Source: Owenia fusiformis (taxonomy: Eukaryota; Annelida; Polychaeta; Sabellida; Oweniidae). From it: a stretch of 64,000 nt of DNA. Of this stretch, positions 1 to 55,942 are shown piece by piece. Position 1 is the first letter of the stretch; every line of letters starts with the position of its first letter. The position numbers and the translations under genes were made by a program. The stretch covers positions 2,985,341-3,049,340 of the forward strand of contig CAIIXF020000008.1 of NCBI GenBank assembly GCA_903813345.2. Reading direction: 5' to 3'. The notes below the pieces were generated by a model. That model did no database searches, was not told where the DNA came from, and saw nothing but the letters and a program-made list of their open reading frames with translations.

Positions 1-27
1 CACATAAATGTTAGTGGAGAACCACAG
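1..27 (+). CDS. SCCPDH: SCCPDH exon end (or first unit of the donor array), encoding ...GEPQ
   Basis: Read in phase, the bases give HINVSGEPQ followed at once by a consensus donor (cag|gtaagg). The family has GEPQ immediately before FLE, and the next exon (631) begins FLEGMQ in phase 0, so the junction fits. Many units in the following array carry the same coding and donor sequence. It is therefore uncertain whether this is the true exon end or just the first visible array unit. Confidence 0.5.
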
Positions 28-350
28 GTAAGGAGCCCACCACATATACATAAGTGGAGAACCATAGGTAAGGAGCTCACCACATAGACATTAGGGGAGA
101 CAACAGGTAGAGCTAACCATATAGACACTAGTGGAGTGTCCTGGAGAACCAGAGGTAAGGAGCTCAATACATTACCATTAGTGGAGAACCACAGGAAGGA
201 GCTCACCACATAGAAATTAGTCGAGAACCACAGGTAAGGAGCTCAATTTATTAACATTAGTTGAGAACCACAGGTAAGGAGCTCAACGCATAAACATTCG
301 TGGGAACCACAGGTAAGGAGCTTGTCGCATAGACATTAGTGGAGAACAAT
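1..350 (+). repeat. Minisatellite of about 40 bp units carrying an SCCPDH exon end plus 5' splice site
   Basis: About nine imperfect units resemble cacatagacattagtgga + gaaccacag|gtaaggagct. The consensus reads (H)IDISGEPQ in phase up to a cag|gtaagg donor. Adjacent spacings measured near 228-305 are 40 and 39 bp. Some units have lost the donor (cacaggaagg near 190), others keep it. Reading through a donor in frame meets a TAG in the next 'cattag', so the intronic part is not coding. From about 350 to 630 the intron shows no further repeat. Confidence 0.85.
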
Positions 351-3300
351 TTGATTTCTTGTATATTCTTCAAGTTATTTATTAAGAAAATTTTCTGAAA
401 TTTATTCATGATATAAGCTTCCATGCTGACCTTCTCACGGGGGTAAAGCACACCCGATGATGCAATGAGCTTGCTCGGTGGTATCATGACTGTATAACGG
501 GACTTAATGTATAAGTGAGCTCGGCAGTAGGTTCAAATAACGCGGATCCTCAAAGCATGTGCTCATGGTATCATCGTGGCTTAACACCCGTGCTTCTGAT
601 ATTACACATGTATATCCTTCTTCATTTTAGTTCCTTGAGGGGATGCAGTTGAAGTTCAACCAGGCAGCCAAAGAGGCTGGTGTATTTGTTATTGGTGCAT
701 GTGGCTTTGACAGTATCCCTGCAGATATGGGCGCCATCTTTACAAGAGACCAGTTTGAAGGTGAATCTTTGAATAATATGATTGAATGTTTTACCATTAA
801 TTTTCATAAATATGCAATTAAATCAAATGGCTTCATTTAAGATAAGGGTCATTTGAATTGATTTGCTAAAATGATAAAGAAGTCAATCAAAAGAAATAAG
901 TCAAGAGAAAGAAGTCAGTTGTAATAGAAGTATTGTTTTTCAGGTGATCTTAATCATATAGAATCTTACCTTGCTATGAGGAGTGGACCCGAGGTAAGGT
1001 TGCATAATATTCAGTGATTCATACAAATTATTACAAAAATCATTGCATTAGTTCCATTGATATTAAAGGTTGTGTAGAATTCTTATCATATTATTTTGTA
1101 ATTAAAAGTGAACTTAAAGTTGCTAATAGTAATAATCAGACATTCTTTCAATAGTCAATGTTGGTATGTTGTAATGCACCATTCAAAAGTTTGTCAATTT
1201 CCCCACCCATGCCTGCTTGGGGGGGGTCTCACACAAACTTTTGAATGGTGCATAAGTAGTTGAGGCCAGCCATAAGAGATTAATATCACGTATCCTACCA
1301 CATATAAATATACTCTTTTACCTACTTATGATACTTATTTATATATTCCCTTCAAATCCAAGATTTCATATATTTAGATTAAGTCACATTGCTTCTCCCT
1401 CCCCCAGAAAGTTCACCCTACGTATGTAAGTGTTTGCATATTTGCTTCAGGGAGGTGGTGGGCATTATGCAACTTGGCAGTCTGCTATACATGGTTTCGC
1501 CAATGCCAGAGAGCTGATTAAGTTACGCAAACAAATGGCGCTTACTCCCCTACCCCGCAGTAAAGACAAGCCTCCTAAAAGGTCAGTGAACAAACTATAT
1601 TTATATATACCTGGCTGTAACTTCAACCCGTCTGCTGAATTGTCTTGATGAGGGGTGAGATCAAAAATCATTCATCAAAAGCATTAAATACATTACAAAT
1701 AGGCTATGTGCATACAGTAATAAATCTTTTGAATGAACTTGATATGTTGAGTTGACCCCAAGGAACCAAATCCATCACATGTATGTGTGTTCCTAATGAG
1801 CTATAAATGCTCAGGGTGAATTTTCCTTTGTTTGATATTTGGTCCTGTGTTTTAAGATAGGAACCTGCAATTTTTAGTGTTTTTAGCTTAGGATTCTGGA
1901 TTGTGCTTCACTTAATATTACTGCTTGTAATTGTCTTGTGTTTTTGGTCTGTTTTGTAATTGTCTTGTGTTTTTGATTGGGTGGTATGTAATGGTAGTGT
2001 GTGTGTGCCTGTGTGGGTAATGGGGGCCACTCATGATAATACATGAACTAGGAAAAACTGATTAGGTTCAGGCCCACTTCTGTATACTAGATAGGTATTT
2101 TTATTTCATTTTTGCATGGATGATAGTACATGTATAGTAGGGCAGCCATCTTCATCCTAGTTTATATCCTGTTAATATCCATTTAATGTAAATCCATCAT
2201 TTCCGTAGGTCAAGTATATGTCAGCTTTCCCCTCTCCCTGTTTCAACCTTTTGTGTTCTGATGTCATCCTTAGCACCATTTGCAGCACTCCCTAATCTCA
2301 TGGGCCTGGTATGATTGGGGTTTTCATGTCTCTTCTGCCTCTGTGTTGCAGGGAGGGGGGCTGAACTTTGCCACCTGGCAGTCTGCAATTTATGGGTTTG
2401 CTCACGCTAAAGAGCTTGTTGCTCTGAGGAAGCAGATGGCTTTGGCTCCCATTCCTAGAAGTCCCCATAAACCAACTAAAAGGTATAGCTTGACCTATCT
2501 AAAATGTCTGTAATGACAGGTTTTATAGCCATCTGTCTACAGTTGAGACAGGGATAGGAATCCATAGATTGTCACATGTATGTAAGGTATCATCCCTGGT
2601 TGTTGAGTAAAAATGTCCTCATCCAAATTGTTGATACATGATAAAACTTTGTAAAGTAGAATTTTTCCTGCTGTGTATTTTCTCTGCTAATTGGTGCCTC
2701 TAATTATAAGGACATGTTAAGCTTTACCTGGCTGTCACCTTTCCTTGCCTTACCTCATTGGTACATAGTAGTTAGAGAAGTTTCTCATTGAAGGAGATTG
2801 TGTGCCAAAGTTTAAACCTTCTGGTTGGCCTCATTCACATTAACATGATTAAACTTCATGGTAGGCTTATTGACTGTACTGGGGAACCACAGTCTGATAA
2901 ATGCAGCCACAACCTAATGTTTTGCCAATATTTCTGCCAGTCTGAACTTTGTTAAATACATACTTGAATGAAAATGAAATGTGTTGAATAAAAATAGATG
3001 GAATTAACTGCAACCAAACATATATACTGAAAATCTTTCCTCCACAACGCAAATACTTTCTTGTGAGAGTCCAGATAAAGTTTCAACATTATCCCTCTCA
3101 GGACTTCCAACCATTCCCAAGGCTTCACTACGGCACTTACCAGTCAGCTATATATGTGTTGGCTCATATGACGGAGGTAGGCAAACATTGGAAGACTCTA
3201 TATCCAACGCCTTTGCCTAAATCTAGTCATCCTCTGGTTAGAGGCATAGCGAAGTGAGTTCAAAACTTTTGAAAGAATCAATCAGTGGTGTTTTTCTGAA

Positions 3301-6300
3301 ACCAAAGCCAGTATTACCTTTTTTTCTCTCATTGGATATTATCAGTTATTAGGTCAAATTTCCTTCTATATTATGTCAACATGAATGTGTCATGCCATTT
3401 ACTTCTATATGAGGTCAACATGAATATGTCATATCATTTACTTCTATATGAGGTCAACATGATTGTGTCATGTCATTTACTTCTATATTATGTCAACATG
3501 AATGTGTCATGTCATTTCCTTCTTTACTCGGTCAACATGAATGTATCATGTCATTTCCTAAATTGGTCAACATGAATGTATCATTTCATTTCCTTCTATA
3601 TTAGGTCAACATTAATGTGTCATGTCATTTTCTTCTATATTAGGTCAACATGAATGTGTCATGTCATTTACTTCTATATGAGGTCAACATGAATGTGTCA
3701 TGTCATTTACTTCTATATTAGGGCAAAATGAATGTGTTACGTCATACTTCTATAAATTATTTCAACATATATGTGTCATGTCATTTCCTTCTATATAAGG
3801 TCAACATGAATGTGTCCTGTCATTTCCTTCTATATTAGGGCAAAATGAATATATTATGTCATTTACTTCTATATTAGGTCAACATGAATGTGTCATATCA
3901 TTTACTTCTATATGAGGTCAACATGAATATGTCATGTCATTTCCTTCTATATTAGGTCAACGTGAATGTATCATGACATTTCCTTCTATATTGTCATTTA
4001 ATTCTATATTATGTCAACATGAATGAATTATGTCACTTCATTCTACATATAGGTCAACATTACACTACAACAATGATGTTAATAGTTGGGCAGTACCATT
4101 CCCTGGTAGTGACCGTTCAGTGGTCAACAGAACACAGAGATTCAACTATGAAGTCAGAAATGAAAGACCTGTGAGTATTTCTTCAATAAAAGTGTGACTG
4201 CAATGTTATTTGATATATTGTTTTACATAAATTGCCAACTTCTTATTTTGTAACATTGATATTCAGGCTCTATTCACCTTGACATAAAAGAGATCTTGAC
4301 TCAACACATTTATCAATATTGCATATCATTACTCATTGTTTATCAATATTCATTGTATATCAGTACTCATTGTATATCAATATTCATTGTATATCAGTAC
4401 TCATTGTTTATCAATACTCATCTGCAACATTAATTTGTGCAAATAATGATTTCAACTCATTACTAAATGGATATCCCTCAAAATAATATGTTTAAAGTTT
4501 TTTGTTGTTATTTGTATCCAGTTGCAATACCAAGCTTACTTCCGTATGCCTGGACTACTGTTCACACTAGTCTTGATGTTCTTTGGTGCCATATTTGGAC
4601 TGTTGGCCAACTTCAGCTTTGGACGGAACTTACTAGAGAGGGTAAAGTGTTTGTTTTACACATAAGGGAGATAAGAACAATGTTAAATCTACTAAAAAAG
4701 TGTTCTAAAATTCTGCCTGAAGTTTGTACTGTGTGAGGCAAACTTTTTGAGATAATCTGAGTTATTGATCTGACATTTTCAGGGTTGAGAACAAGGAGAT
4801 TGTCTTTAAACAAGAATGTAAGAAATTGTTTTAGGTGGGGTCCCAATCTTTGTTTTGGAGCAAAGTGGGACATTTTACAATTCTAGGACCATTCTTGGGG
4901 GAATAATTGGAAGATACTATTTGTTTGAATCAAAATGTTGTATTTATACTGAGAAATAAATGCCTATAATCCAAACCATACCATACCTTGTTCTTTTAAT
5001 ACTTCACATTTCCTGTATGTAATAATTGGCACATATTTATATAATACTCAAGAATGTAATATTGTTCATCCCGTATCTTGTGATACATAATACTTCAAGA
5101 TAGTATAATATATATTTTAATTACCATTCAGTTCATATAATATCTCAATTGATATTTATATTTTGCATTATTTTATTTTAGTATCCAAGATTTTTTTCTG
5201 GTGGTGTATTCAGCCATGAAGGACCTACAAGAAAACAGGTATTTAACTAAATACTGAAAATTATGCTTTTTTATTAGAGGTGTCACAGATACCCGATTGT
5301 TTTCCGACCCGCGGAATTACGCTCTCGGAATGGAACATAGAACAAAACAACAAGAAAATCTTAAACCTTTCACAGCTGGTGGCCCTTAAATCGCAACAAA
5401 ACAACATTTTTATTTTAATATTTTGCACCAAGAGAAGTCCATTCTTTTCACTCCTTCTCATTGAAGAGGCTTTTTCTTCCAAATAAACCTAGAAAAAAGC
5501 ACAGTGTTCATCGTTCAATAGTTGACACTAGCAATTCTTCAGAATAGTTGTGGCATGTTAGATTCTGTTTGAAGAATTCTCTGTCTAATGTAAATTTAAT
5601 ATAGTGACAAATGTTTTATGATAAAGCCCTACAGTTATGATTTTTTTATGATTCTAATTAAATGTTTTTTTTCTATTAGATTGCAGGTTCATCGTTTAGT
5701 ATGACGTTCATAGGAGAGGGTTATTCCAAGAAGGTGGAAGATGCAAGTGAACAACATAGTGAAGCCCCAGATAGGAGGATCATTGCAAGAGTATCTGGCC
5801 CAGGTCAGTCATGTTATACGTGTATTGAAAATTCTTCAAGTCTTGCATCAAGTTTTTTTATTGTTATTGTTCCAAACACCTTGACTTTGAAAATGTAAAG
5901 TGGCGGGACAAGGGCCTCATATAAGACTACATGTACAGTAGAACCTGGGAACGAGGAATGCTCTTCAGACTGGCCAAAATTGTTTTTTTTGTAGACTGGT
6001 GTTCCCAATAGTGAGGGTCCATGTTTTGGGCCGATCCCAAAAACCAATTTGCCAAATAAGCATATAATTGTAGATGATGAATTAATACAATATTGCTTAG
6101 AGTCTATATTCAAGTTTCATCAACCCCATTTTGTAGAATTAACAATATGCAAATTTGGACCTTTTTTAAGATTTAAAGAGATATGGCTCAATATCACACA
6201 AATACATTTCTATTATCTCCTCAAATAGTTGTGTCTGTCCCTAGAATAACTCAACTTATCAGATGAGATCAGCTTTTGTTGAAAAAAAGCATGAGTGTCA

Positions 6301-9300
6301 ATTTGCAATTTATAACAAACAGATCAATTAAAAAAATAAGATAAGGGTAATAAACATTCATATTAATCTAAGGTTTTTAGAATCACATATTGGCTTAAGC
6401 CATTCGCACCTTTGAGAAACAATTAGATGTACCTGTACAGTGTAACTTATTTTCCATGTTCCTTGTGAACAGGTGAATTTTCAAAATTTGCCCAAAAGCA
6501 CCGTTCCCTGTCCCTAGTAGACAGATGTTCCATAAAGAGAGGGTCAGTTAACATGTAAGTTAATGGAAAAATATTTGGTTCTTTTGAAAACTGTTCCTTG
6601 TGGAGGGCTTTTCATTACAGAAATGCGTTCCATTAAACAGGTTTTACTGTATATAGTATATATTTGACTGAGTTTATCTGGCTGGTAGTGTTTAAAGACC
6701 AAGTTTTGATTCTTCTTGAATGAGACGATCTATTAATACCCACCATTGCTGAATAAGAACTATCAAATTGTTAAAGTGCACTATTGAACCGCCACAAAAA
6801 AATTTGATTCACTATAATCAATTCAACAGATAATTTGTAACTTGTTACATTATATGAGTAAAATTATTTATATTTCAAAATGTTTATATATTTTTTAGTA
6901 CATAATATTTTTGTATAAAAAAGGAGCAGGTTTTATTATTCTAAACAAACTAACTTAAACATACACCCTGTACAATACTAGAATCTAAGACTTTAGAGAT
7001 TCTTGTTGTTGATCTCTTTCAATTTTCATCAGACAGAAAATAAGAAAAACTGCACAAGAACATATTATTGTCATCAAAACAAAATACCATTTGGTACACA
7101 TTTCTCCATAACAGTCTTTTGATCCAGATGATGTGTAGGTGTCATAATTCGACGCAAAAAGAGTTTGAAATAAAACCATTCCTATTCCATAGCTAGCTGC
7201 AATGAGTCCAATGTTTTGTCCAAAGTGTTCCATACCATAATATCTTAAAACGATGACATTTGTTAGAGGAAATACGGAACCAAACAACAGAGAAAGTATT
7301 ACGGAGGAAAATATCAAACAAATCAAACTTTGATTATAAAATATGAGTGTAATTTGACTGATGATGAAGATAATACCAGGAAATAACAGAAAAGATCCCC
7401 TCAGAACATCTGGCCATTTCTGAATAATGAAATCTGACACTGTTCCACCAAGAAGTTGTCCCAATGACATACAAATTGAAATAACGACTGGGAAAGGTAA
7501 AGAATATGGATCAATCCTTGCTGATTTGACAACAATTGTGATATTATTTATTAATGTCCCACATGTACCAGCAAAAATTATGCAAATAATAAAAATGTAG
7601 TAAAATCCACTTGTTTTAATCATTTGCAAACAGTTCATCTCTGGTTGGGGTGATCTTGCTATTTTATCTGCAATAAGTGCCGTTGTATCGCTCATTTTTT
7701 GTTTATTTTCTTTCTCCCTTGGACCATTGCTTTTCTCATCTGTTGTTGCTCCATTTGCATCAATATCGCTTCTTCTTACTGGTGATAGTTCAGTTTCATC
7801 ACTTTCACTTGTCTCTTCTGGAGCTACTTTAAGCATCACAACACCATAGAGATTTATACAAGCTGATAGTACTGCTAGCATTATCATAAACTCTCCTAGC
7901 TTTTGATTCTCTGCATCTTCAATATGTCCTTGTACAAACAATCCCCTATAGATGGCACTAAATATTGCAGGACTAATCCCACGAAATGCACCAACAAGTC
8001 CTAGCACCTTACCCACATGTTTTCTGTCAAAGAGTTTGCAGCAGACCACCTTTGGTGCTATGACAAGAAACCTCAATCCAAATGACGCCAGAAAGTAAAA
8101 AGCACATAAAAGCCAGGACTTTGAACTAAAAAATAATCTAAACTCAGTTGCCATCAACATAAGCAAAAATCCCATGGTTGTTAGTATTAGTGAGACAGTA
8201 CATGCTATCCTTGGACCAAACCTGTCTACGATAACACCTGCTGGAAAAGACATGGGTATTCCCAAATCTCCTGCCGATGCTATATTGTCCAGTTCACTCT
8301 GAGTGAAGTTAAATGTCCGTTTCAGGGATATCGCATATATGTTAAATCCATACACGATTCCAGCTATAAGTGATCCTAGTATCCCTATGCTTAAACTAAC
8401 ATATTTTTGAAGTTGTTGACTTTTAAAATTCATTGTCTGTGTGTTCTGTCCTTGGGAGTTTATTGTTTTGTTCTTGGCCTATGTGTTGTCTCAAAAATAT
8501 TTGAATTTTAAAATGTTGAATTGCAAAACACAATAATATCAACTGTTCTGTAATCTAAATATATAAGGTGTCTCAGTACCTTCCTTATTACAAGTTTATT
8601 TTCTGCTTTATTTCTTGAAGATTACAGTAACAATGTGTTTCGTGTATGACATAGGCCCCTATCTCTAAGTTTGTAATTCAAAGTCTGTTCTACCTTTTAG
8701 TGTATCATTAAAGAACCTGCATACTTTGCTGGTACATAAAGAATATTTTACACCGTTTTTATGTCCCCACCACATAGTGTGGGGCCATATTGTCGGCCTA
8801 GGCGCATCCGACTGTCTGTCTGTCCATCCGTCTGTCCGTCCGTGCGTCCGTACGTACGTCCGGGAGTTTTCTCCAAATCCGCTACAGATATCACCATCAA
8901 ATTTTCAGGGATAACTTATGAGTGCCTATATATGTGGATGAAAAAAATTTAATTCGAAACCTACTTCCTGTCGGCCATTTTGAAGTCATATGCTAAAATC
9001 CTTGTCTGCAAACTTTAAGAAAAACTGCTTCACAGTTGCTTATAAAACTTTAACATCTTGTTCAGCTCACTTCATTCTAGATCTGATTAGGTTTTGGACC
9101 TGTTAGCTCAGTCATGTCAGCAATGTCTTAAGAAAAGTTAGCGCGCGATAATACTTTGTATCATATTGAATGGTGTTTTTGAGTTTTCATACTTTAACTA
9201 TTTAGTAGCTTTATAAATAATTTCAGATGTACTTTGTTGTAAAAGCCTATTTTATTGTTAACAGTAGTTATATGTGATAATTTTGTAAATAGAAATCAGC

Positions 9301-12300
9301 AAAAACTCATAAGGACTTTTTTATTGTCGGCCATTTTGGATTTTTCGGTCCTAAAATCTTGTCTGTGAAGTCTTGTCTGCGTGTTTTCAGGTGAACAGTT
9401 TGGTGGATCAATTTCAAATTTTCAGGGATGATTCTTAGTATAAAAATCTAGATCTCATTAGTTTTTTGGCATTCTGGGTAAATGTCAAGGCAGCCATTTT
9501 GGATTTTCCGTCCTAAAATCTTGTCTGTAAAGTCTTGTCTACGCATTTCCAGGTGAACCGTTCTGTAGATCAATTTCAAATTTTCAGGGATGATTCTTAG
9601 AATGAAAATCTAGATCTGATTAGTTTTTTGGTTTCTGGATAAATGTCAAGGCAGCCATTTTGGATTTTCCGTCTTAAAATCTTGCCTGTAAAGTCTTGTC
9701 TACGCGTTTTTAGGTGAACCGTTTGATAGATCAATTTCAAATTTTCAGGGATGATTCTTTGTATGAAAATCTACAACTGATTAGTTTTTTGCATTCTGCG
9801 TAAATGTTAAGGCAGCCATTTTGGATTTTCTGTCCTAAAATCTTGTCTGTAAAGTCTTGTCTACATGTTTAGATCGTTATTATCCACTAAAGTGTCATAT
9901 TCTAGTGATTTGTGGATATTGTTAGTTCCGTTCGTACTTTTGGCGTAATTCTCGAACTATTCTTAGTGCCATTCGTACTTTTGACATACAAGGTCAAAGG
10001 TCACTGTCGTAGTTTTCTGGTCTAAATTTCACCCTGTTTACTATGTTTTATCGTTAATCTAATAGGATATGCACCTAATACGTAAATTCAGCTCTCTATA
10101 GGCAGAGATCACGATAGTTGAAAAAACTTGTTAGCCATTGTGGCTAAATCTTCCAAAAAAAATTTCGCCAACCAAAATATGAATTAGCCATTTTGAAAAA
10201 CCGTAAAAAAGGGAACATTAAAAATGATGAAATGTCTGATGATGACAGTTTCACTTTCAGTTTCACTTTTCAAAATCATATTCAGAAATAAAAAAACGTC
10301 AATTAAAATTGAATGTAAAGCATCTGCCGCGAATGTGATCGGCATTTCACATAGTCTGCACGGTGTAATATCACCAATTCGTTAACCTTGTGATATCGGA
10401 GTCCCAAAATACTTCCAAACTGCCGACTTTTTCGACTTAGATGCCGGCTCGATTTTTCAATTTCTTTCCTACATCCGGCATACTGATAATGCACTCGATT
10501 TGCGAACGACGATGAAGAAATTTACGAACAAGCATTACCATCTACCTGAAATCGCGGGTCCGTTAATAACACTTTTCAATGCAAAGAAGTGTAAACTAGG
10601 TACGAGGTAAGTGAAAATATTTAATTTTTCAGAACGAAGTCGGAGGTGTTCCTCGCTATTTATACACGTTTTTATGCATTCTAGGGAAGGAATCTATGTA
10701 CCGATATTAACCCTTTCTGTCCCATGTCCCGAACCGAAGCACCAATATCGGGAAACCGTGACAACTCTAATTCGCCATAACTGCGAAATACCTTTACATA
10801 TTTTTCGCCACCTCTTTCGAAAATTCGCGATTGGCGAATGGCGAACGTCTACTGTGATCTCTGCTATAGGTAGTTTATTTAAACTTAAACAGATCGGTCC
10901 CGTATTGTCGGTCCGGTATTGTCGAAGTTATGGCCGTTTTTGTGGATTTACATAAGTTCGTAATTTATGTCGGTCGCTGCGCATGCGCAGAAGACAGGTA
11001 GCCATCTTATGTTTTTCGAGTAAATCATTCGTGATTTGCTCCGCTATCTTCACTCAAAATGTCGCTATTGTTGACCGTCGAGGTGTCTAAACTGTCTCAC
11101 GATTTACACCAGTAAGTCGTCCGTCCACATGAGGTGATTACAACAGGATTTGCACGAAGTCTGACCCCCAAATCAGGCTTGAAGTTTGAGGTTCACCCCT
11201 CTTTCCGTCTTAAAATCTTGCCTGTAAAGTCTTGTCTACGCGTTTTTAGGTGAACCGTTTGATAGATCAATTTCAAATTTTCAGGGATGATTCTTTGTAT
11301 GAAAATCTACAACTGATTAGTTTTTTGCATTCTGCGTAAATGTTAAGGCAGCCATTTTGGATTTTCTGTCCTAAAATCTTGTCTGTAAAGTCTTGTCTAC
11401 CCGTTTTCAAGTGAACCGTTTGGTAGATCAATTTCATATTTTTGTGATAACCCAACAGATTTACTTACTTGTTTGCTGATATTCAGTAATGTCAGTTAAT
11501 TGTCTCACCACTGTTGGGTTTCACTTAATGTTGTTTATATACTCACATACATGTTTAGATCGTTATTATCCACTAAAGTGTCATATTCTAGTGATTTGTG
11601 GATATTGTTAGTTCTGTTCGTACTTTTGGCGTAATTCTCGAACTATTCTTAGTGCCATTCGTACTTTTGACGTACAAGGTCAAAGGTCACTGTCGTAGTT
11701 TTCTGGTCTAAATTTCACCCTGTTTACTATGTTTTATCGTTAATCTAATAGGATATGCACCTAATACGTAAATTCAGCTCTCTATAGGTAGTTTATTTAA
11801 ACTTAGCAATCGGTCCCGTATTGTCGAAGTTATGGCCATTTTTGTGGATTTACATAAGTTCGTAATTTATGTCGGTCGCTGCGCATGCGCAGAAGACAGG
11901 TAGCCATCTTATGTTTTTCGAGTAAATCATTCGTGATTTGCTCCGCTATCTTCACTCAAAATGTCGCTATTGTTGACCGTCGAGGTGTCTAAACTGTCTC
12001 ACGATTTACACCAGTAAGTCGTCCGTCCACATGAGGTGATTACAACAGGATTTGCACGAAGTCTGACCCCCAAATCAGGCTTGAAGTTTGAGGTTCACCC
12101 CTCCCGCATCACTTTCAAATGTCAGCACGTCTGTCAAATGGCGAACTACATACCACCAACCACCAACCACTCATATGCTGATGCAAATACCTCATGTGGA
12201 TGGACACCCTACACCTCATTTCAAGCTTTAAGCACTCTATGTATCGAGTGTGACAAATTGGCAAGTATTACATTTAGATTTTGATTTGACTTGTTAATGT

Positions 12301-15300
12301 AAAAGCACATTGGAATTATTTGACCCATATTTGGTTTACATGGTTGATGATCAACATACCCAGTTTGATCATGTCAGTTTGCTTCATTGTTGTTGATCAA
12401 CATACCCAGTTTGATCATGTCAGTTTGCTTCATTGTTGTTGATCAACATACCCAGTTTGGTCATGTCAGTTTGCTTCATTGTTGTTGATCAACATACCCA
12501 GTTTGATCATGTCAGTTTGCTTCATTGTTGTTGATCAACATACCCAGTTTGGTCATGTCAGTTTGCTTCATTGTTGTTGATCAACATTCCCAGTTTGATC
12601 ATGTCAGTTTATCTCATTGTTGATGATCAATACCCAAATTGATCATGTTTTGGTACACTGCAAACTACCCTGTGCAGCTGTATGTTACGTAATGTCTCGC
12701 TTGTATGTAGTCGGCTTATGGAGTTCAAGTCTTACTGTTGGGCAACACTTAGTATCAGATAGATGATTGTAATGATTTAAACCCTGTTGGAACCCTGGTT
12801 TATGGTCTAGCCTGATACTAGTTTTGAACTTGAACTGTTCTATTGTTTATGGATGGTTGGAGTGTCGGTTTTATTGTATCGTTGCATTAAGGTCGTACTA
12901 TAATTTATATACTGTATGCATGTATGGCTTTCCCCAAAGCAACCCTAGGGAGATACAATTTGTTGCACCCAATATTACCAAAGGGAATACAAGTTGTTGC
13001 ACCCACCCTTATGTTGTGTCATGGAATATTATAAGTTGGTGATGTACTACCACCAACTTGAGTATACAGTTTCACTCATGTTCATGATTGATCACTTACT
13101 ACATAACATGCACCCACTTGTTACATAGCATGTATCCACATGATGTGTAATCGCACCCATATGTCATGTAGCACGCGTCGGCATGTTTCATAGCAGGCGC
13201 CCACTAGTTACGTGACATGTATATCCATGTCATGTGATTGCACCCACACGTTATATGACATTAATTTTCCTAGCATGTTACATAATGAGCAGTCATGTAT
13301 ACATTGTTATCACTAATTGGTATGTTGAATCAAATGTTGTACAAGTTATTGTTATAGTCATTATTTGGTATGTTTCAACCAAGCTTGTGAATACATAGTT
13401 TTACGTTGATATTTCTAGTTGGTCTTTTTGTCAGTGGTTGTAATTAGGTGCCCGTTGTTGTTGTTCTCATTGTCAAAGGTTGTTGCAAAGTCATGGTAAT
13501 ACATATTGCTATGTATGTTTATTTGGTCACCAGTTGTGTCACACACTCTCCCAGATGAAAGTATTGTATGTTATATGTTTAATGTAAGATTTATGAATAT
13601 GAGCTCAATAATGTGTAATTGCAGTATCAGCTTCTTGGTAATTATGTAATCTTACTTGAGTATGTATTTTACTTGATAGGAAATACTATGTATATTATCG
13701 TAACCACATTTCAGGGATCTTAGTTGCATAACGATCCACCTTTGTGCGTAATCCTTGAATATGGGTACCCGTTGCCATTGAGTAACGCTGCACCATATAT
13801 CATTCAGGTATCACAATATCAGAACTTTTATTCATATATATATATTTCCACACTATGTGTGTAATTGTCATAATTACTATACTCACTTTGTAATCACAAT
13901 GTAAATAAACCCATAATCATGTTTTCATTTATGTTTAAACTAAATCATCTGTTTTGTCAGTTGGGTGTATGTTTTATGTCGCAGTGCGACATATTCAGCC
14001 ATTTTGACATTCAATCAATCATGTCTGTAAAACCCCTGAGAGTGTATACAATCACAACACGGACCCGGTAATAATGTGACGATTCTTCCACTCACTCATC
14101 AACCCTTTAACGCTACCAATACCTTTTGTATTTACCATGCAGAGTGAGGGTCGTTACATTTTCAGGGATGATTCTTAGTATGAAAATCTACAAACAGATT
14201 AGTTTTTTGACATTCTGGGTAAATGTCAAGGCAGCCATTTTGGATTTTCCATCCTGAAATCTTGTCTGTAAAGTCTTGTTTACATGTTTTCTGGTTAACT
14301 GTGTGACGGATCAATTTAAAATTTTCAGGGGTGGTTCTTAGTATGAAAATCTAGAACTGACTAATTTTTGGGCATTCTGGGTAAATTATAAGGTGGCCAT
14401 TTTGGATTTTCCGTCCTCAAATTGTGTTGGTAAAGTCTTCATCTACTCATTTTCAGGATAACCATTTGACGGGATCACCCATTGGTGGGGACATTTTGTA
14501 CACATTTGTGTTCTTGTATTTATCTGTACAGGTAATTTTAATGTAAATTTTGCCATTGCACACAGAGGAAGTATCAAAGAATCCTGATGCCTTTAGAAAA
14601 TTAAAGTGCCGGCCTTCTTAAAAGAATTCAGGGTTCATGTCATGAAACACCATTCTGGGCATTTGAATTCAAGAAAATAGCAAAAATTGTGTTTTTTTTA
14701 TTTGTGCCTTAGAAAATCCCAAATCAGTAGAACATTTCAAATTACTGTAGTACTAGTGAAATGCTTCCTTAGAATGTTTCATCATCTGAAATCACTTAGA
14801 TTTACAAATTTTTGTTCGTTGGGATTTGCTTTTTCATTGAGTGTTTTCATAAAATAAGAGCAAAGTTTAAATTCTATAAGAATAATAGATAGAGAAAAGT
14901 TGAAAACATTGTGGCAATCCTTCTCACTTTATCTCTTCTTATTTCTTTTATGGTCTTTATTGTCAATAAATGAATGCCAACATATACATATAAAGCGTTT
15001 TTGCCTAAACATTTCCATATTCGAATGAGGATACAGCATATGAAGGTTATGAGGGTACAGCATCATACTGTAGTGTCAGATGTACAATATACATAGAAAG
15101 AAGCATGTCTTGGTTATTTCTTATCACTAATCCAGTTGAAACATCATACTGACGTATCAGATATTCAAGATATTTTCTATCATTTTCTATTCTTTGATAA
15201 TTATTACAATCTGAACTAATTTAAACATACACCCTGTACAATACTAGAATCTAAGACTTCAGAGATTCTTGTTGTTGATCTCTTTCAATTTTCATCAGAC

Positions 15301-41697: not shown

Positions 41698-44022
41698 AGA
41701 CTCCAGATGAAAATCTGGAGTCTATTGCTTTTGCCAGTTTTCTTTATTATTATTAGACTCCAGATTGAAAATCTGGAGTCTATTGCTTTTGCCAGTTTTA
41801 TTATTATTATTATTATTCTTTCCGAACCAGTTTTCTCAGCAACTAGAAGACCTTACTCAAATCTACTTACAGGGTCAGTAAGGAGATGAGATCTAGTTTC
41901 TGGGAAATTAGGTTAAATTTTTATCTAGGTCAAAGGTCAAAATCTAGGTCAAATTTATAGTTTTCCTTATTTTTACGATTCTGACACTACACTTTAATAA
42001 TTTGCTTCAAAATTTTGTATACAGATAGCAAAGAGTGTGCTAATAGTGTTAGCCTTTTGCCGTCAGAAAGTATTTAGACCCACTTTTGAGATATGGTGTC
42101 CGAAAAGTAGGTCAAAATAAAGAGTTCTCCAAATTTAATGTATGAGTTATGAATTAAGAGTAGAATTTTCTCAGGAATCCGAATCTGCAAACCAAATTCC
42201 GATCCGGCTTTTGGTTCGGAAGTTATGGCGTTTTGAAAGCTCAAAAATCGCTAAATTTGGTGCCTATGTTAAGTCAATGGGAAAAAAGACTTTTTCGAAG
42301 TGTAAAATACAAGATATAGACTGAGTACAGCTTAATATAATGAATGCTTATAAAAGAAGGGAACCTCAAAAGCTACATAGCTTCAAAATTTGGACACCAA
42401 AATGCCTAGGTCAAAATCTAGGTCAAATTCATAGTTTTTCCTTATTTTAACGATTCTGACACTACACTTTAATAATTTACTTCAAAATTTTGTATACAGG
42501 TAGCAAAGAGTGTGCTAATAGTGTTAGCCTTTTGCCGTCAGAAAGTATTTTGACCCACTTTTGAGATATGGTGTCCGTAAAGTAGGTCAAAATAAAAAGT
42601 TCTCAAAATTTAACGTATGAGCTATGAATTAAGGGTAGAATTTTCTGAGGAATCTGAATCTGCAAACCAAATTTCGATCCGACTGCCGGTTTGGATGTTA
42701 TGGCGTTTTGAAATCTCAAAAATCGCTAAATTTGGTGCCCCATGTTAAGTCAACGGGAAAAAAGACTTTTTCGAAGTGTAAAGTACAAGATATAGACTGG
42801 GTACAGCTCAACATAATGAACTTTTGTAAAAGAAGGGGACCTCAAAAGCTACATAGCTTCAAAATTTGGACACAAAAATGCCTAGGTCAAAATCTACGTC
42901 AAATTCATAGTTTTTCCTTATTTTTATGATTCTGACACTACACTTTAATAATTTTCTTCAAAATTTTATATACAGGTAGCAAAGAGTGTGCTAATAGTGT
43001 AAGCCTTTTGCCGTCAGAGAGTATTTTGACCCACTTTTGAGATATGGTGTCCGAAAAGTAGGTCAAAATAAAAAGTTCTCCAAATTTAACATATGAGTTA
43101 TGAATTAAGAGTAGAATTTTCTCAGGAATCCGAATCTGTAAACCAAATTTCGATCCGACTTCCGATTCTAAAGTTATGGCGTGTCCGAAAAGTAGGTCAA
43201 AATAAAAATTCGCCAAATTTAACGTATGAGTTATGAATTAGGGGTAGAATTTTCTCAGGAATCCGAATCTGCAAACCAAATTTCAATCCGACTATCGGTT
43301 CCAAAGTCATGGCTCGAAAATCGCTAAATTTGGTGCCCCATGTTATGTCAATGAGAAAAAAGATTTTTTTGAAGTGTAAAATACAAGATATAGACTGAAT
43401 ACAGCTTAACATTCTGAAAGCCTATGAAAGAAGGGGACCCCGAAGCCTATCTAGCTTTAAAATTTGGACACCAAAATGCCTAGGTCAAAATCTAGGTCAA
43501 ATTCATAGTTTTTCCTTATTTTTGCGATTCTGACATTACACTTTAATGATTTACTTCGAAATTTTGTATACAGGTAGCAAAGAGTGTGCTTATAGTGTTA
43601 GCCTTTTGCCGTCACAAAGTATTTTGACCCACTTTTGAGATATGGTGTCCTAAAAATAGGTCAAAATAAAAAATTCTCAAAATATCCCTTATGAGTTATG
43701 AATTAAAGGTAAAATTTTCCCAGGAATCCGAATCTGCAAACCAAATTTCAATCCGACTTCCGGTCAAAAATTCCTACTTACCTACCTACCTACATACCTA
43801 CTTGGCTACCTACTTAGCTACCTACTTCTCAGCTACTTGGCTACCTACTCAGCTACTTACTCAGCTACCTACTCAGCTGCTTACTCAGCTACCTACTCAG
43901 CTACTTACTCAATTACTTAATCATCTACGTACTCAGCTTCCTACTCAGTTACTTACTCAGCTCTTTACTCAAGTAAATCAATCTGGAGTCTTAAATTGAA
44001 CTTGTTCAATTTACATGTCTAG
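41698..44022 (+). mobile_element. Helentron/HINE-like element A: terminal hairpins, 476-bp satellite core, 12-bp tail array
   Basis: The left end is a hairpin agactccagat/atctggagtct (present twice, 41698 and 41754). The core holds four copies of a roughly 476-bp unit; 'agcaaagagtgtgct' starts at about 42027, 42502, 42978 and 43576. A ctacttactcag array follows at 43775-43980. The right end is the hairpin ttaaattgaac/gttcaattta then catgtctagt. It sits in TTA repeats. The structure resembles bivalve pearl/HINE elements; that assignment is inference. Confidence 0.75.
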
Positions 44023-46251
44023 TTATTATTCTTCTTCCTCCTTCCCAGATTTCTCACCAACTAGAAGAGCTTACTTTAAGCTGCTTACATGATTAACTAG
44101 GGAATGTATCTGGGATGATGGGAAATTAGATCAAATTTTTATCTAGGTCAAAGGTCAAGAACTAGGTCAAATCCAGTACTTTGTCACTTTTTCCCATTAT
44201 CTCAGTCGTCCTTCAATATTTTTGATCCTGGTTTTTTTCATTGTGTTCCTCATAAAAAAGTAGAAAACCTAGGGTCGATTTAGTTTTTTGGTATCTCAAA
44301 CCGATTTCGAGATATCAGTGTCCGAAAACGAGGTCCAAAACAAATTTCACCGAATCCAATGTCGAGGATATCAGTCTTATAGGACATTTTGTCAGGATTC
44401 AGAATCTGAAAACCAAATTTCGATCTGACTTCCGGTTCAGAAGTTATGGCGTTTTGAAAATTCAAAAATCGCTAAATTTGGTGCCCCATGTTAATTCAAT
44501 GGGAAAAAATATTTTTTTGAAGTGTAAAATACGAGATATAGACTAAGCACAGCTAAACATAATGGAAGCCCATAAAAGAAAGGGACCACAAGACCTTCTT
44601 TTCATAAAAATTTGGACACCAAAATGCCTAGGTCAAAATCTAGGTCAAATTCAAAGTTTTAACTTATTTTTGCGATTCTGACACTACAGATTAATTATAT
44701 TCTTCGAAAATTTGTATACATGTAGCCAAGAGTGTGCTAATAGTGTTAGCTTTTTGCCGTCATAAAGTATTTTGACCCACTTTTGAGATATGGTGTCCGA
44801 AAAGTAGGTCAAACTAAAAAGTTCTCCAAATTTAACGTATGAGTTATGAATTAGGGGTAGAATTTTATCAGGAATCTGAATCTGCAAACCAAATTTTGAT
44901 TTGACCTCCTGTTCGGAAGTTATGACGTTTTGAAAGCTCAAAAATCGCTAAATTTGCTGCCCCATGTTATGTCAATGGGAAAAAAGATTTTTTTTACGTG
45001 TAAAATACGAGATATAAACTGAGTACAGCTTAATATAATGAAAGCCTATTAAAGAAGGGGACCTCGAAGGCTACTTAGCTTCAAAATTTGGACACCAAAA
45101 TCCCTAGGTTAAAATCTAGGTCAAATTCATAGTTTTTCCTTATTTTTGCGATTCTGACACTATATTCAAATGATTTGCTTTAAAATTTTGTATACAGGTA
45201 GCAAAGAGTATGCTCATAGTGTTAGCCTTTTGCCGTCAGAAAGTATTTTGACCCACTTTTGAGATATGGTGTCCGAAAAGTAGGTCAAAATAAAAACTAT
45301 CCAAATTTAATGTGTGAGTTATGAATTAAAGGTATAATTTTCTCAGGAATCCAAATCTGCAAACCAAATTTCGATCCGACTTCTTGTTCTGAAGTTATGG
45401 CGTTTTGAAATCTCAAAAATCGCTAAATTTGGTGCCCCATGTTAAAGCAGTGGGACCGAATAATTTTTTTGAAGTGTAAAAATACGAGATATAGAATGAG
45501 TACAGCTAAACATAATGAAAGCCCATAAAAGAAGGGGACCTCAAAAGCTACTTTCCTTCAAAATTTGGACACCAAAATACCTAGTTCAAAATCTAGGTCA
45601 AATTCTTAGTTTTTTCTTATTGTTGCAATTCGGACACTACACTTCAATGATATTCTTCGAAATTTTGTATACATGTAGCAAAGAGTGTGCTCATAACGTT
45701 AACTTGTTGCCGTCAAGAAGTGTTTTGACCCACTTTTGAGATATGGTGATCGAAATGTATGTCAAAATAAAAAGTTCTCCAAATTTAACGTATGAGTTAT
45801 GAATTAGGGGTAGAATTTCCTAAGGAATCCGGATCTGAAATTAAAATTGCAATCCGACCCCCGGCTAAGATTCTAAGCCATTTTGAAGTTTGAAATTCGC
45901 ACTTGCCAGTATTCACGATGCAGATTGATCAAATAAACTTTCAAAAATTCCTACATACCCTACTTTACCTCCCTACCTACTCAGCTACTTATTTGACTAC
46001 TTACTCAATTGCTTAATTAGTTATTACTTACTTAGCTACTTACTCAGCTACTAACTCAGGTACTTACTCAGCTACTTACTCAGCTACCTACTCAGCTTTT
46101 TACTCAGTTACTTACTCAGCTACTTACTCAACTACTACTAAGGTACTTACTCAGCTAATTACTCAGTTAATTACTCAGCTCTTTACTGATCTATCTAGGT
46201 AAAATAAATCTGGAGTCTTAAATTGAACTTGTTCAATTTCACAAATCTAGT
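44023..46251 (+). mobile_element. Same satellite-bearing element, copy B, directly abutting A
   Basis: Begins at 'cttcttcctccttcccagat' without the left hairpin, so it is 5'-truncated or a tandem dimer partner. The core has units with the same landmark at about 44724, 45200 and 45678. The ctacttactcag array is at 45955-46195, and the right hairpin ends in aatctagt. Open frames such as 43691-43999 are translations of the 12-bp arrays. Confidence 0.75.
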
Positions 46252-47714: not shown

Positions 47715-49587
47715 AGACACAATTCAATTCAATTCAATTCAATTTATTCCTTAATAATACAATAATACATGGTACATATAAAAGAATTAACAGGTGACAT
47801 CATTTCTGATGTTTATACCCGTACATGTAAAAGCATAATATTACAGATATTTAGAGTAAAAGTAAGGTCAAGGAATCAAACATATCAAGGTTGTGTTTTG
47901 TCTAAGGAAAAATCGAAGAGGGAGGGGGAGGTGCATCATAGATAAAAAGCTATCAAGTTTAGTGTCCAGTACCCAGGCTTGGAGTTATATCTGTATATAT
48001 TTCTATAAAGGAGATAGAGCATGAATAAGGAGGCTGCAGTACATAAATATAAAAAGAAGAAGATCATGCATACAACGCCAGAATATGTTTCTTATATTTA
48101 GACTTAAGACATTTACTTGACCTTGATGTTTTTATTTCTGATGGGAGGCTATTCCAAATAGATGGTCCAGAAAATGAAAGCATCTTTCTGCCAAAGGTTT
48201 CTGTTTTAAATTTAGGCAAGGCATAGTTATATTTACCTCTTGTATCATACTTATGTAGTTCATTATGTCTTGTAAATAAGTTGGGAAATATATCATGTAG
48301 GTTATTTTCATTGTTTTGCCACTTAAAGAAGAATTCTGCCACATTGACTTTAAATATATCAGAAATGGTGAGAATTCCTAATTCTTTAAATAATGGTGGA
48401 GTGTGATCTCTAAATCCACTCTGAGTAGCTAATCTTGCAAATTTCTTTTGTATTAAGTGAAGCGAATTAATTGAAGTGATATTAGCATTTCCCCAAATGA
48501 TATTGCTGTAAGTTAAATAAGAATGGATTAGAGAATGATATATAGTCATAAAGGTTTTCCTATCTAGTAAATGGTGAATCTTGTACAGAATGCCAACTAT
48601 CCTTGATATTTTCATTTTGACTTTACTAATATGTTCATTCCATGAAAGATGTTGGTCAATAACCAAACCAAGAAAATTAGTGTGTGTTACTCGTTCAATA
48701 ATTTTACCATCAATAAATATCTCTAAGTTCCTGGTATTTACCTTTTTCTGCTTTGAAGTAAATAATATGTACTTAGTTTTATTAATATTGAGTGACAGTT
48801 TATTGGCTATAAGCCAATCTCTGATACTATTTAATTCAGTATTCAATCTTTAATTTCATTAAGGTTTTTCCCACTGATTAAAATATTTGTATCATCAGCA
48901 AACAGAACAAAGAGAAGTGCTGGAGAGGTCAAGTAGATATCATTGATATAGAGTATAAAAAATAAGGGCCCTAAGACAGATCCCTGTGGAACACCACATT
49001 TGATAGTTTTGAAAGATGAAATTTTATCATTATATTTAGTACACTGGTTGCGATTTGTTAAATAACTAGAGACCCACCTTAGAACAGGTCCCCTAAAACC
49101 GTAAAATTCCAATTTCTGTAACAGTATGCTATGATCAATGGTATCAAATGCTTTTGAAAAATCTAGAAAAAGCCCAATGCTGAATTCATTGCTGTCAACA
49201 GATTTCTTAATTTTTTCTACAAATTGTAAAATTGCCATGTAAGTAGATCTTTTCTCTCTAAATCCATACTGATTCAAATACAAAATTCCAAATCTAATAA
49301 TAAAATTACTCATCCTTACATACATAAGTTTCTCAAGGATCTTTGAAAAGACAGGTAGAACTGATATAGGACGATAATTGGTAAATAGATTAAGTTCATC
49401 TTTTTTATGAATAGGGGTAACTATAGCAGTTTTTAGTTTATCTGGGAAAACACCCTGTAAGAGTGAGCTATTGAATATGTGTAGGAGAGGTTTTAGAAAA
49501 TTATTGCTGCATTGTTTAATAATATTAGGTTTTAAGTCATCTGCCCCAGCAGCTGAATCTTTTAGATTCAATTTTTGGTTCAAATTT
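47715..49587 (-). mobile_element. 5'-truncated LINE (jockey/CR1-like group)
   Basis: Inserted where the left TIR arm stops matching the right arm. The 3' end (low coordinate) finishes in a ttgaattgaattgaattg tail at 47721-47747. Only the reverse transcriptase and C-terminal part remain; the endonuclease is missing because the 5' end is truncated. Confidence 0.85.
48064..49583 (-). pseudogene. LINE reverse transcriptase, broken by a frameshift
   Basis: The upstream frame (49583-48843) has TPIHKKDELNLFTNYRPISV, LDFSKAFDTIDHSILL, GVPQGSVLGPLFFILYINDI and FADDTNI, i.e. RT blocks 2-5 with the FADD catalytic Asp pair. It stops at KNLNEIKD. The following frame (48846-48064) continues LNTELNSIRDWLIANKLSLN, NKTKYILF, LGLVIDQHLSWNEHI and a C-terminal GPSIWNSLPSEIK. 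The two are out of register by one base at 48843-48846, so a single-base loss is the simplest break. The N-terminal endonuclease is absent. Confidence 0.92.
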
Positions 49588-53343: not shown

Positions 53344-53674
53344 TATATACAATATATATTGTACATAGAAAGGAGCATGTCTTGGTTCTTTCTAATCACT
53401 AATCCATCTAGAGCATCATACTGAAGTATCAGATATTCAAGATATTTTATATCATTTTCTATTCATTGATAATTCTTACAATCTGTTCACCATATGTCTA
53501 TATTTATGAAAATAGTTAGAAATCTTGCATAAAATATGTGTACATTGTCCAAATTAACCAAATTGGCCTAAACTGAATGGGCCTTTTATTTTACGAGTGA
53601 CGCCCATCCCCACCTGAATCTGCCATAGACTATTGTATTTTAAGTTGTTCATGTGGATTCATTATGTATTTCAG

Positions 53675-53756
53675 AGGCTGTTTATGTGACAACACCCATT
53701 TGTATGATTCAAGCAGCTTTGGTTCTTCTTCAGGAGAAGGATAATTTGCCAAAAAG
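53675..53756 (+). CDS. Duplicate SCCPDH penultimate exon
   Basis: The acceptor is gtatttcag and the donor is gtaaga at 53757, with the same 82-nt length and phase as 19057-19138. It encodes EAVYVTTPICMIQAALVLLQ, with Gly to Val at the third residue compared with copy 1; other changes are silent. No upstream SCCPDH exons lie between 19776 and here. It is either an alternative 3' end for SCCPDH, or the remnant of a partly duplicated gene. Confidence 0.75.
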
Positions 53757-53939
53757 GTAAGAACGGATCTTGTAAACCCTGCTATGATTAACAACTCAGC
53801 AAATCAGTATATATTTTTTGTATATTTATGTTATACTACACGTACAGTATTTTATTGTTTTGTATTTAATCAAGTGAAATATCAAACTAGATCAGACTAT
53901 ATTCCACACAATATATAGTAAAATCACTCAATTTGTGCT

Positions 53940-55942
53940 CCATCTGATTGTTTGTTTCAATTGGGTGTTCAATTGTAACCATGGATATAATGATGTCATA
54001 GTTAGAGGACAAACAACAGGAATTGTTACGGAGTTTCTGTTTATGACCTTTTGATTGTTTGTTTCAGTGGGGTTGTTCAGTTGTAACCATGGATATAATG
54101 ATGTCATAGTTAAACGACAAATAACAGGAATTGTTACAAAGTTTCTGTTAATTACCTTTTGATTGTTTGTTTCAGTGAGGGCGTTTAGTTGATGTAACAA
54201 TGGATATCATGATGTCATTTTAAGAGGACAAACAACAGGAATTGTTACGAAGTTTCTGTTAATGAACTTTTGATTGTTTGTTTCAGCGAGGGCGTTTAAT
54301 TGATGTAACCATGGATATAATAATGTCATATTAAGAGGACAAACAACAGGAATTGTTACGAAGTTTCTGTTAATGACCTTTCGATTGTTTGTTTCAGTGA
54401 GGGCGTTTAATTGATGTAACGATGGATATAATGATGTCATATTAAGAGGACAAACAACAGGAATTGTTACAAGTTTCTGTTAATGACCTTTTGATTGTTT
54501 GTTTCAGTGAGGGCGTTTAATTGATGTAACAATGGATATAATGATGTCATATTAAGAGGACAAACAACAGGAATTGTTACGAAGTTTCTGTTAATGACCT
54601 TTCGATTGTTTGTTTAAGTGAGGGCGTTTAATTGATGTAACGATGGATATAATGATGTAATATTAAGAGGACAAACAACAGGAATTGTTACAAGTTTCTG
54701 TTAATGACCTTTTGAGTGTTTGTTTCAGTGAGGGCGTTTAATTGATGTAACAATGGATATCATGATGTCATTTTAAGAGGACAAACAACAGGAATTGTTA
54801 CAAAATTCTGTAAATGACCTTTTGATTGTTTGTTTCAGTGAGGGCGTTTAATTGATGTAACAATGGATATCATGATGTCATTTTAAGAGGACAAACAACA
54901 GGAATTGTTACAAGTTTCTGTTAATGAACTTTTGATTGTTTGTTTCAGTGAGGGCGTTTAATTGATATAACAATGGATATCATAATGTCATTTTAAGAGG
55001 ACAAATAACAGGAATTGTTACAAGTTTCTGTTTATGACCTTTTGATTATTTGTTTCAGTGAGGGTGTTTAATTGATGTAACCATGGATATAATGATAAAT
55101 ATTAAGAGGACAAACAACAGGAATTGTTACGAAGTTTCTGTTAATTACCTTTTGATTGTTTGTTTCAGTGAGGGTGTTTAATTGATGTAACCATGGATAT
55201 AATGATGTCATATTAAGAGGACAAAAAACAGGAATTGTTACAAGTTTCTGTTAATGACCTTTTGATTGTTTGTTTCAGTGAGGGCGTTTAATTGATGTAA
55301 CAATGGATATCATGATGTCATTTTAAGAGGACAAACAACAGGAATTGTTACGAAGTTTCTGTTAATGAACTTTTGATTGTTTGTTTCAGCGAGGGCGTTG
55401 AATTGATGTAACCATGGATATAATTATGTCATTTAAAGAGGACAAACAACAGGAATTGTTACGAAGTTTCTGTTAATGACCTTTTGATTGTTTGTTTCAG
55501 TGAGGGCGTTTAATTGATGTAACGATGGATATAATGATGTCATATTAAGAGGACAAACAACAGGAATTGTTACAAGTTTCTGTTAATGACCTTTTGATTA
55601 TTTGTTTCAGTAAGGGCGTTTAATTGATGTAACCATGGATATAATTATGTCATTTAAGAGAACAAACAACAGGAATTGTTACGAAGTTTCTGTTAATGAC
55701 CTTTTGATTGTTTGTTTCAGTGAGGGTGTTTAATTGATGTAACAATGGATATGATGATGTCATATTAAGAGGACAAACAACAGGAATTGTTACGAAGTGT
55801 CTGTTTATGACCTTTCGATTGTTTGTTTCAGTGAGGGCGTTTAATTGATGTAACAATGGATATAATGATGTCATATTAAGAGGACAAACAACAGGAATTG
55901 TTACAAAGTTTCTGTTAATAACCTTTCGATTGTTTGTTTCAG
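53940..55942. repeat. 110-bp minisatellite whose unit carries the terminal SCCPDH 3' splice site
   Basis: About 18 units, each with gaccttttgattgtttgttt + cag|tgagggcgtt then taattgatgtaac. The last unit leads directly into the real exon at 55943. Copy 1 of the gene has only two units. In the exon's phase each unit reads S-E-G-V-stop (TAA). Two units have lost the AG (tttcaattg near 53957; tttaagtg near 54613 keeps a shifted AG). The minus-strand frames running through this array are repeat translations. Confidence 0.93.

Follow-up and report, generated by a model that had tools for sequence, protein, structure and literature searches.

Arrays over splice junctions in described systems and in Owenia

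Minisatellite-like repeats lying over exon-intron boundaries, at the 5' as well as the 3' end of introns, are known from the amphioxus genes Adh3, BflGb6 and BflGb9 (the latter two globins), where they were named mirages (PMC3087553). Their units measure 10 to 160 bp, haplotypes differ in length, and the data suggest that regular splicing is undisturbed; it was also proposed that introns can be gained through them (PMC3087553). Here we analyzed 64,000 nucleotides of the annelid Owenia fusiformis (C8:2985341-3049340; this whole stretch is the window below) and searched the genome to which it belongs (498.3 Mb in 525 contigs). A gene in the window, which we take to be related to SCCPDH and therefore call SCCPDH-like, carries three tandem arrays, each built from one of its own splice junctions, and comparable arrays recur in unrelated genes in excess over motif-matched DNA. 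These arrays are probably mirage minisatellites, and exon-intron junctions probably form a hot spot of tandem duplication that recurs across this genome.

Three further systems come close. In human IFI6 (6-16/G1P3) a minisatellite carries the donor site, and units further downstream are said to function as donors (PMC4526556); unlike IFI6, the later donors of array 1 that we tested lead to stops. Intron gain by tandem genomic duplication (Rogers; potato RdRp; the 24-bp AGGT repeats of fission yeast) copies a segment with a splice signal, sometimes several times (PMC4974935), but that model creates a new intron, whereas the arrays here enlarge an existing intron from its edge. In human segmental duplications, minisatellite units of about 30 bp on average lie at exon-intron boundaries, with 27 intron modifications left after manual inspection (PMC2812944); unlike the Owenia arrays, these are variable repeats in recent paralogs, altering exons or forming novel introns.

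The likeness to the amphioxus mirages consists in tandem units that cross the exon-intron boundary, at both kinds of boundary. The difference is one of spread: the available part of the amphioxus report names a few genes of one chordate (PMC3087553), whereas the Owenia arrays occur in unrelated genes and show a motif-controlled excess. The elements belong to a kind already described; what is new is how widely they are spread here and that they occur in excess. In the open-licence literature we found no report of a genome-wide mirage count or of a mirage in a protostome. A stretch resembling an FMRFamide precursor, with about 20 FMRFG copies, lies at C6:23756324-23757141 (19 matches to the pattern against 0 for the reversed pattern). 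FMRFamide precursors mark protostomes, and a genome with such a precursor is most likely that of a protostome and not of a cephalochordate; a search of the genome for hemerythrin gave no match and is uninformative.

Three arrays copied from the junctions of one gene

The initial annotation had described three minisatellites built from splice junctions of one gene family, and the origin of all three units from the gene's own junctions was borne out. Tandem Repeats Finder (TRF) placed arrays in the window at 11-347 (period 40), 3358-4045 (period 39/57) and 53945-55944 (period 110/221). When the units were aligned with 30 junctions of the window and the upstream neighboring stretch (L003), each scored best on its own junction: 103 against 20 for the next best in array 1, 28 against 18 in array 2, and 59 and 54, on two copies of the last-exon acceptor, against 24 in array 3. 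In all three arrays exon-edge and intron-edge sequence stand together in one unit. Positions below 1 lie in L003 and are counted with its position 8000 as 0. The arrays and the exons whose junctions they copy are as follows.

-568 to -488, outside the window, + strand: exon YRFFGEPVVRAAVENGAHHIDISGEPQ, ending CAG/GTAAGG (GEPQ end), copied by array 1
1 to 347, + strand: 3' part of array 1, 40-bp units (TRF, sequence)
3358 to 4052, + strand: array 2, 39-bp units with tatattag/gtcaacatgaa (TRF, junction alignment, unit conservation)
4053 to 4170, + strand: SCCPDH exon g, STLHYNNDVNSWAVPFPGSDRSVVNRTQRF..., acceptor copied in array 2 (tblastn, protein search)
19333 to 19667, + strand: low-copy equivalent of array 3 in copy A, with one extra acceptor, a foldback insertion and the real acceptor (BLAST, count)
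19668 to 19776, + strand: last exon, copy A, GGVLTPGAVFAKTTLINRLQENNMKFTVMVQEPKK, with stop (tblastn, protein search)
53945 to 55942, + strand: array 3, 18 copies of a 110/111-bp unit with tttgtttcag/tgagggcgtt or a variant (TRF, count)
55943 to 56045, + strand: last exon, copy B, GLTPGAVFAKTTLINRLQENNMKFTVMVQEPKK, with stop (tblastn, protein search)
L004, C8:3082300-3085400, outside the window: last-exon pair, copy C

The donor origin of array 1 (GEPQ, CAG/GTAAGG) stood, but not its extent, which had been given as 1-350. In L003 and the window together, TRF followed the array from -523 to 347 (22 units), so the earlier reader had seen its distal part alone. The unit, GGAGCTCACCACATAGACATTAGTGGAGAACCACAG/GTAA, joins 36 nt from the exon to 4 nt from the intron and has a mean identity to consensus of 92%; the real end of the exon forms the first unit, and the later part of the array is somewhat more diverged. 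The acceptors said to be repeated, that at 4053 in array 2 and that at 55943 in array 3, agree with our results; an SCCPDH exon begins at 4053 and the SCCPDH last exon at 55943. Units of these two arrays hold the acceptor plus about 8 to 11 nt resembling the exon start. In array 2 (19 units including the real junction, mean identity 88%) this is about 8 nt, gtcaacat, while the real exon at 4053 begins gtcaacattac.

The claim of a gene family was not borne out. A protein search of the genome located each of the 5' and middle SCCPDH exons a single time, whereas the last two exons gave three matches (A, B and C), every match lying on C8; a tandem gene family was therefore rejected in favor of one gene in which only the last two exons are present in three copies. 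These duplicates differ in array length, with 2 acceptor copies in A, 19 in B and 20 in C, the real site included. According to the acceptor-motif count, C (in L004) has one unit more than B, the extra unit not being located by naive splitting, which gave 21 pieces for each. Identity in the 3' flanks is 99.8% between B and C and 89% between A and B; in their 5' flanks, B and C are 94% identical. From these flank identities and copy counts, the first duplication in array 3 seems older than the divergence between A and B/C, and the large expansion seems to have come afterwards. By reading, the foldback insertion within the low-copy array of A has long inverted ends (19436-19580).

These comparisons also bear on whether assembly errors or collapsed polymorphism produced the arrays, as the near-identical units of some arrays elsewhere (L005, L019, L023; 99-100% in TRF) might suggest. 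We regard this as most improbable, because the units of arrays 1 to 3 have diverged, with 88-95% mean identity to consensus, and because array 3 in copies B and C, which lie about 43 kb apart, shares a number of variant units in a common order and differs by one unit.

Chance within the window

The initial annotation held that chance could hardly account for the three arrays. L003 and the window together measure 72 kb, with 30 junctions placed, and 3 of their 25 merged TRF arrays hold a junction. A model in which each array goes back to one founding unit at a random position gave an expectation of 0.71 arrays at junctions for the 24 arrays with units of at least 10 bp (P[≥3] = 0.035) and of 0.62 for the 12 arrays with units of at least 25 bp (P = 0.026), the script taking 18 bp, a minor TRF period, as the unit of array 1. 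With whole arrays slid as blocks, P rose to 0.38, so that the excess in this gene is weak. The claim is thus weak within the window (P of 0.03 to 0.38), and stronger for the genome-wide donor excess described below; significance in the window as proof was rejected, and the single gene does not settle the question of chance.

Such numbers give some room to the view that there is no hot spot, that minisatellites are born equally everywhere and those spanning a junction are tolerated, and that three in one gene reflect luck and a post hoc search. The region is itself rich in tandem repeats, as its 25 merged arrays show. We nevertheless consider this view unlikely in the light of the genome-wide results.

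Excess of donor arrays in the genome

Three exact copies of CAGGTAAG with gaps of 20 to 50 nt gave 285+98 matches in the whole genome, and the reversed motif gave 62+3, although the single 8-mers are nearly equal in number (13,495 against 11,848). Because matches inside one array are not independent, we counted loci. From C1 to C6:38.56 Mb there were at least 19 donor loci, 19 loci of CAGHTAAG and 4 of GAATGGAC, for 13,495, 38,314 and 11,848 whole-genome sites, respectively. The array rate per site of CAGGTAAG was therefore 3.07 times that of both controls pooled (one-sided binomial P = 4.2e-4). The donor count is a minimum among the matches listed, which extend to C4:3.07 Mb for the main donor motif and to C7:31.3 Mb for the second donor listing (first copy not followed by G); the donor array at C2:379-382 kb was counted once, and the CAGHTAAG clusters at C1:22.30 and 22.32 Mb were taken as one locus. 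If junction-spanning arrays were merely tolerated, the donor rate should not exceed that of neutral DNA, but donor arrays exceed both controls (P 4e-4).

We then compared the upstream flanks of 21 donor arrays (L005-L025, the gene of the window excluded), 11 control arrays (L026-L036) and 40 random CAGGTAAG sites (L037-L076). The random sites are 40 of the first 47 listed, all in the first 2 Mb of C1, with 7 close neighbors skipped. For the search we took, within 330 nt, the longest open reading frame (ORF) with its end at the first motif; all 21 donor loci provided one. Searches covered 6 of the 11 control arrays, the 5 without an ORF of at least 22 aa being scored as misses, and 28 peptides for the 40 random sites, where 10 sites without an ORF and 2 repeating another ORF were likewise scored as misses. 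A Pfam match at E ≤ 1e-3 was found at the start of 10 of the 21 donor arrays, as opposed to 2 of the 40 random sites (one-sided Fisher P = 1.7e-4) and none of the 11 control arrays (P = 5.5e-3). The ten donor arrays and their matches at this threshold are as follows.

L005: NIF phosphatase
L006: tRNA-synt_2d
L009: M24 peptidase
L013: DHC_N1
L015: DAAF9_N
L019: EHMT Cys-rich region
L020: DNase II
L022: kringle
L024: SH2
L025: Pfam family Il2rg

The array of L006 lies 43 nt inside the intron and does not include the junction, which leaves 9 of 21 with the junction inside the array (9/21 against 2/40, P = 5.8e-4). Merging near-duplicate random sites to 36 gave P = 3.3e-4 for 10 of 21 and 1.1e-3 for 9 of 21. 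The two random sites with a match were Atrophin-1 (L038, low-complexity) and ERCC4 (L067). Matches above the cutoff were left uncounted (donor L007 0.01 and L010 0.043; random L044 0.048, L064 0.018 and L069 0.0072). In PDB, the exon at the L011 array matched a KIAA0895-like protein (E 5e-7), beyond the ten, and the exons at L018, L021, L093 and L017 had no match at E ≤ 0.1, no random site having been searched there. A subjective judgment by eye put exonic-looking sequence at about 15 of the 21 arrays, compared with about 10 of the 40 random sites (P = 5.9e-4 in a lenient Fisher test).

The donor-motif excess over the controls and the Pfam-supported exons at arrays compared with random sites support the earlier suggestion that junctions are prone to tandem expansion. 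The genome-wide scan proposed with it was made with motifs and samples, and within that range it points the same way. The same Pfam comparison (10/21 donor arrays against 2/40 random sites with the same 8-mer) speaks against equal birth everywhere. Several points weigh on the other side. The locus test compares 19 with 23 loci among the matches listed; the 40 random sites come from the first 2 Mb of C1 and include a few near-copies; for the control arrays a single flank was searched, and no ORF was available in 5 of the 11; and L006 and L085 lie near exons without holding a junction, so the excess would be partly non-specific if minisatellites favor the vicinity of exons.

Donor units tend to consist mostly of exon, with a mean fraction of 0.73 (Kolmogorov-Smirnov test against uniform, P = 0.016; 14 arrays with basic periods entered by hand, L009, L010 and L017 of 17 being omitted for an ambiguous basic period). 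Since acceptor units, by eye, do not show the same, we take this as a hint only.

Among the matches listed, the longest donor array is at C1:53780640-53784944 (L007), with 48-bp units over 4.3 kb; it starts at a plausible exon, which lacks Pfam support at 1e-3. L011 (C3:6491000-6492600) has a 17-bp unit, TTCAGGTAAGTTCATTT, at the KIAA0895-like exon, with both an acceptor-like and a donor-like signal, and appeared in both scans.

Acceptor arrays

Three copies of TTTTCAGG gave 162+124 matches in the genome against 43+12 for the reversed motif. The single motif is already commoner than its reverse (55,592 against 23,493, or 2.4 times, partly via a dispersed 161-bp repeat), and for this reason we drew no rate from the acceptor scan. 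Tandem units of 161/162 bp, GCCATTTTGGATTTTCCGTCC...TTTTCAGG, stand at -1476 to -910 (L003) and 9330-9864, and also, for example, in L078 and L080; they inflate the count of TTTTCAGG.

Of 22 acceptor loci listed, 20 were fetched, omitting C3:6.49 Mb (identical with L011) and C3:27.34 Mb (one of the three copies of a short satellite), and peptides were searched for 16 of these (not L078, L083, L088 and L094). A Pfam-supported exon (E ≤ 1e-3) stands at the array end of 7 of the 20 loci, listed below.

L079: 7tm_3
L082: SBF-like
L086: SSF
L087: HMA
L089: zinc finger
L090: septin
L096: Cep192

By inspection, about 18 nt or more of exon lie within the unit in L082, L086, L089 and L090, and a few nt in L087 and L096. 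Two more loci, L088 and L093, resemble these cases by eye, with what are presumably a thioesterase-like and an alanyl-tRNA synthetase motif, respectively; L088 was too short for the search and L093 reached E 0.034. The other 11 of the 20 loci end without a Pfam-supported exon; among them, L091 had no match despite looking coding by eye, and the array of L085 lies only near a coding-looking stretch. Because the acceptor peptides were chosen by frame reading, this result is not blind, and 7/20 stands without a random-site comparison, which also counts against the hot spot. Arrays at Pfam-supported exons thus occur in several genes of this species, at 10 of 21 donor arrays and 7 of 20 acceptor loci.

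The repeated splice sites are not under extra constraint

The initial annotation had offered selection for the arrays as an alternative, in which repeated sites make splicing robust or regulate alternative splicing, as in IFI6. Two observations agree with it: the gene looks alternatively spliced next to two of the arrays (three alternative exons before array 2, and three last-exon pairs at array 3), and repeat units of human IFI6 are used as donors (PMC4526556). The units themselves argue otherwise. The share of unit dinucleotides conserved at least as well as the unit GT/AG is 50% in array 1, 92% in array 2, 49% in array 3 and 38% in its copy C, and the unit AG of array 2 is kept in 79%, under the unit mean of 88%. 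No constraint on the splice dinucleotides was found in these four arrays beyond that of other unit positions, and selection on the unit splice sites was dropped as unsupported.

Reading frames point in the same direction. Among the first eight exact CAGGTAAG copies of array 1, only the first (donor 1) splices in frame to the following exon, while donors 2 to 8 each lead to a premature stop, so that the open frame needed for downstream donors to be usable as in IFI6 is missing there. Unit lengths are a multiple of three in 8 of 17 donor arrays, which is not clearly above one third, and no conclusion was drawn because several periods had been doubled by the method. The claim that selection favors the arrays is therefore not supported, we regard it as very unlikely, and a mutational hot spot is favored over it.

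From the frames of the array 1 donors we infer that the exon-most splice site is used and that the extra copies are spliced out as intron. As conservation of the GT/AG does not exceed that of the remaining unit positions, we read the repeat copies as passengers. Passengers should not be commoner at junctions, and their excess there would therefore mean a higher rate of birth at junctions.

How the arrays may arise

According to the mutational hot spot that we prefer, a short segment across the exon-intron junction would be duplicated in tandem, and the copies would then multiply into the intron, with the exon-most copy retaining the reading frame and the extra splice sites drifting along with the remainder of the unit. 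As the cause, we think it most plausible that the DNA at exon edges breaks or slips in connection with transcription or splicing. Duplication of an exon edge would be harmless at the junction alone, because the copies fall into the intron. It would fit the exon-rich donor units if exon-edge DNA duplicated in this way and the junction were the one place where the copies do no harm.

A bolder extension, to which we give rather less than even confidence, is that junctions are a true hot spot through a transcription- or splicing-coupled event, which may seed arrays in hundreds of genes (an extrapolated and uncounted figure) and provide spare splice sites for new introns and alternative exons. It might then be general to some invertebrate genomes instead of an amphioxus oddity.

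Mirages, which the available part of the amphioxus report treats gene by gene in a chordate (PMC3087553), become countable across a genome once they are found, in excess over matched motifs, in unrelated genes of what is most likely a protostome. The arrays provide a natural system for two questions: how the spliceosome selects one site when 20 are nearly the same, and whether introns are gained from tandem duplication at junctions. They also call for caution by annotators, since such introns can be misassembled or misannotated.

The SCCPDH-like gene

The SCCPDH-like gene lies on the + strand, with its first exons upstream of the window in L003. Its spliced protein matched the saccharopine dehydrogenase NADP-binding domain in Pfam (PF03435, residues 8-141, E 1.2e-18). 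A search with the protein in PDB gave no match, NCBIfam gave none for three proteins, this one included, and Pfam none for a first, partial protein. Its remaining exons are as follows.

631 to 760, + strand: SCCPDH exon FLEGMQLKFNQAAKEAG..., next after array 1 (tblastn, edges read)
944 to 993, + strand: SCCPDH exon DLNHIESYLAMRSGPE (tblastn, edges read)
1451 to 1581, + strand: alternative exon f1, GGGHYATWQSAIHGF..., 131 nt (tblastn, edges read)
2352 to 2482, + strand: alternative exon f2, GGGLNFATWQSAIYGF..., 131 nt (tblastn, edges read)
3102 to 3253, + strand: alternative exon f3, DFQPFPRLHYGTYQSAIY..., 152 nt (tblastn, edges read)
4522 to 4641, + strand: SCCPDH exon h (tblastn, edges read)
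5182 to 5238, + strand: SCCPDH exon i1, YPRFFSGGVFSHEGPTRKQ (placed by reading)
5680 to 5803, + strand: SCCPDH exon i2 (tblastn, edges read)
19057 to 19138, + strand: penultimate exon, copy A (protein search, edges read)
53675 to 53756, + strand: penultimate exon, copy B (protein search, edges read)

The alternative exons f1, f2 and f3 are homologous and of the same phase, and they look mutually exclusive because two together would break the frame. The last two exons are triplicated across about 80 kb with similar coding sequence, and the start of the last exon differs in each copy (GGVLTP in A, GLTP in B and, as read from the DNA, SLTP in C). Two first exons in L003, the three alternative exons and the three last-exon pairs together could yield a large number of isoforms.

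Other features of the window

ARAGORN and Rfam (gathering scores) gave no match in the window. Just after array 1, at 433-592, lies a short dispersed element with at least 39 other matches of 91-96% identity on many contigs. Within an intron of the SCCPDH-like gene, two intronless ORFs resembling MFS transporters lie on the - strand at 6985-8478 (497 aa) and 15251-16750 (499 aa), in a 2.5-kb duplication that is 94% identical; the Pfam search was made with the ORF at 6985-8478, which matched PF07690 (E 8.8e-35). Related arrays of a 476-bp unit occupy 41934-43313, 44386-45837 and 59646-60627, the last in the opposite orientation, and arrays of the 12-bp TACTTACTCAGC type lie near the first two. 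A reverse transcriptase ORF is located at 48843-49586 on the - strand (RVT_1, E 1e-28), next to an ORF at 48064-48849.

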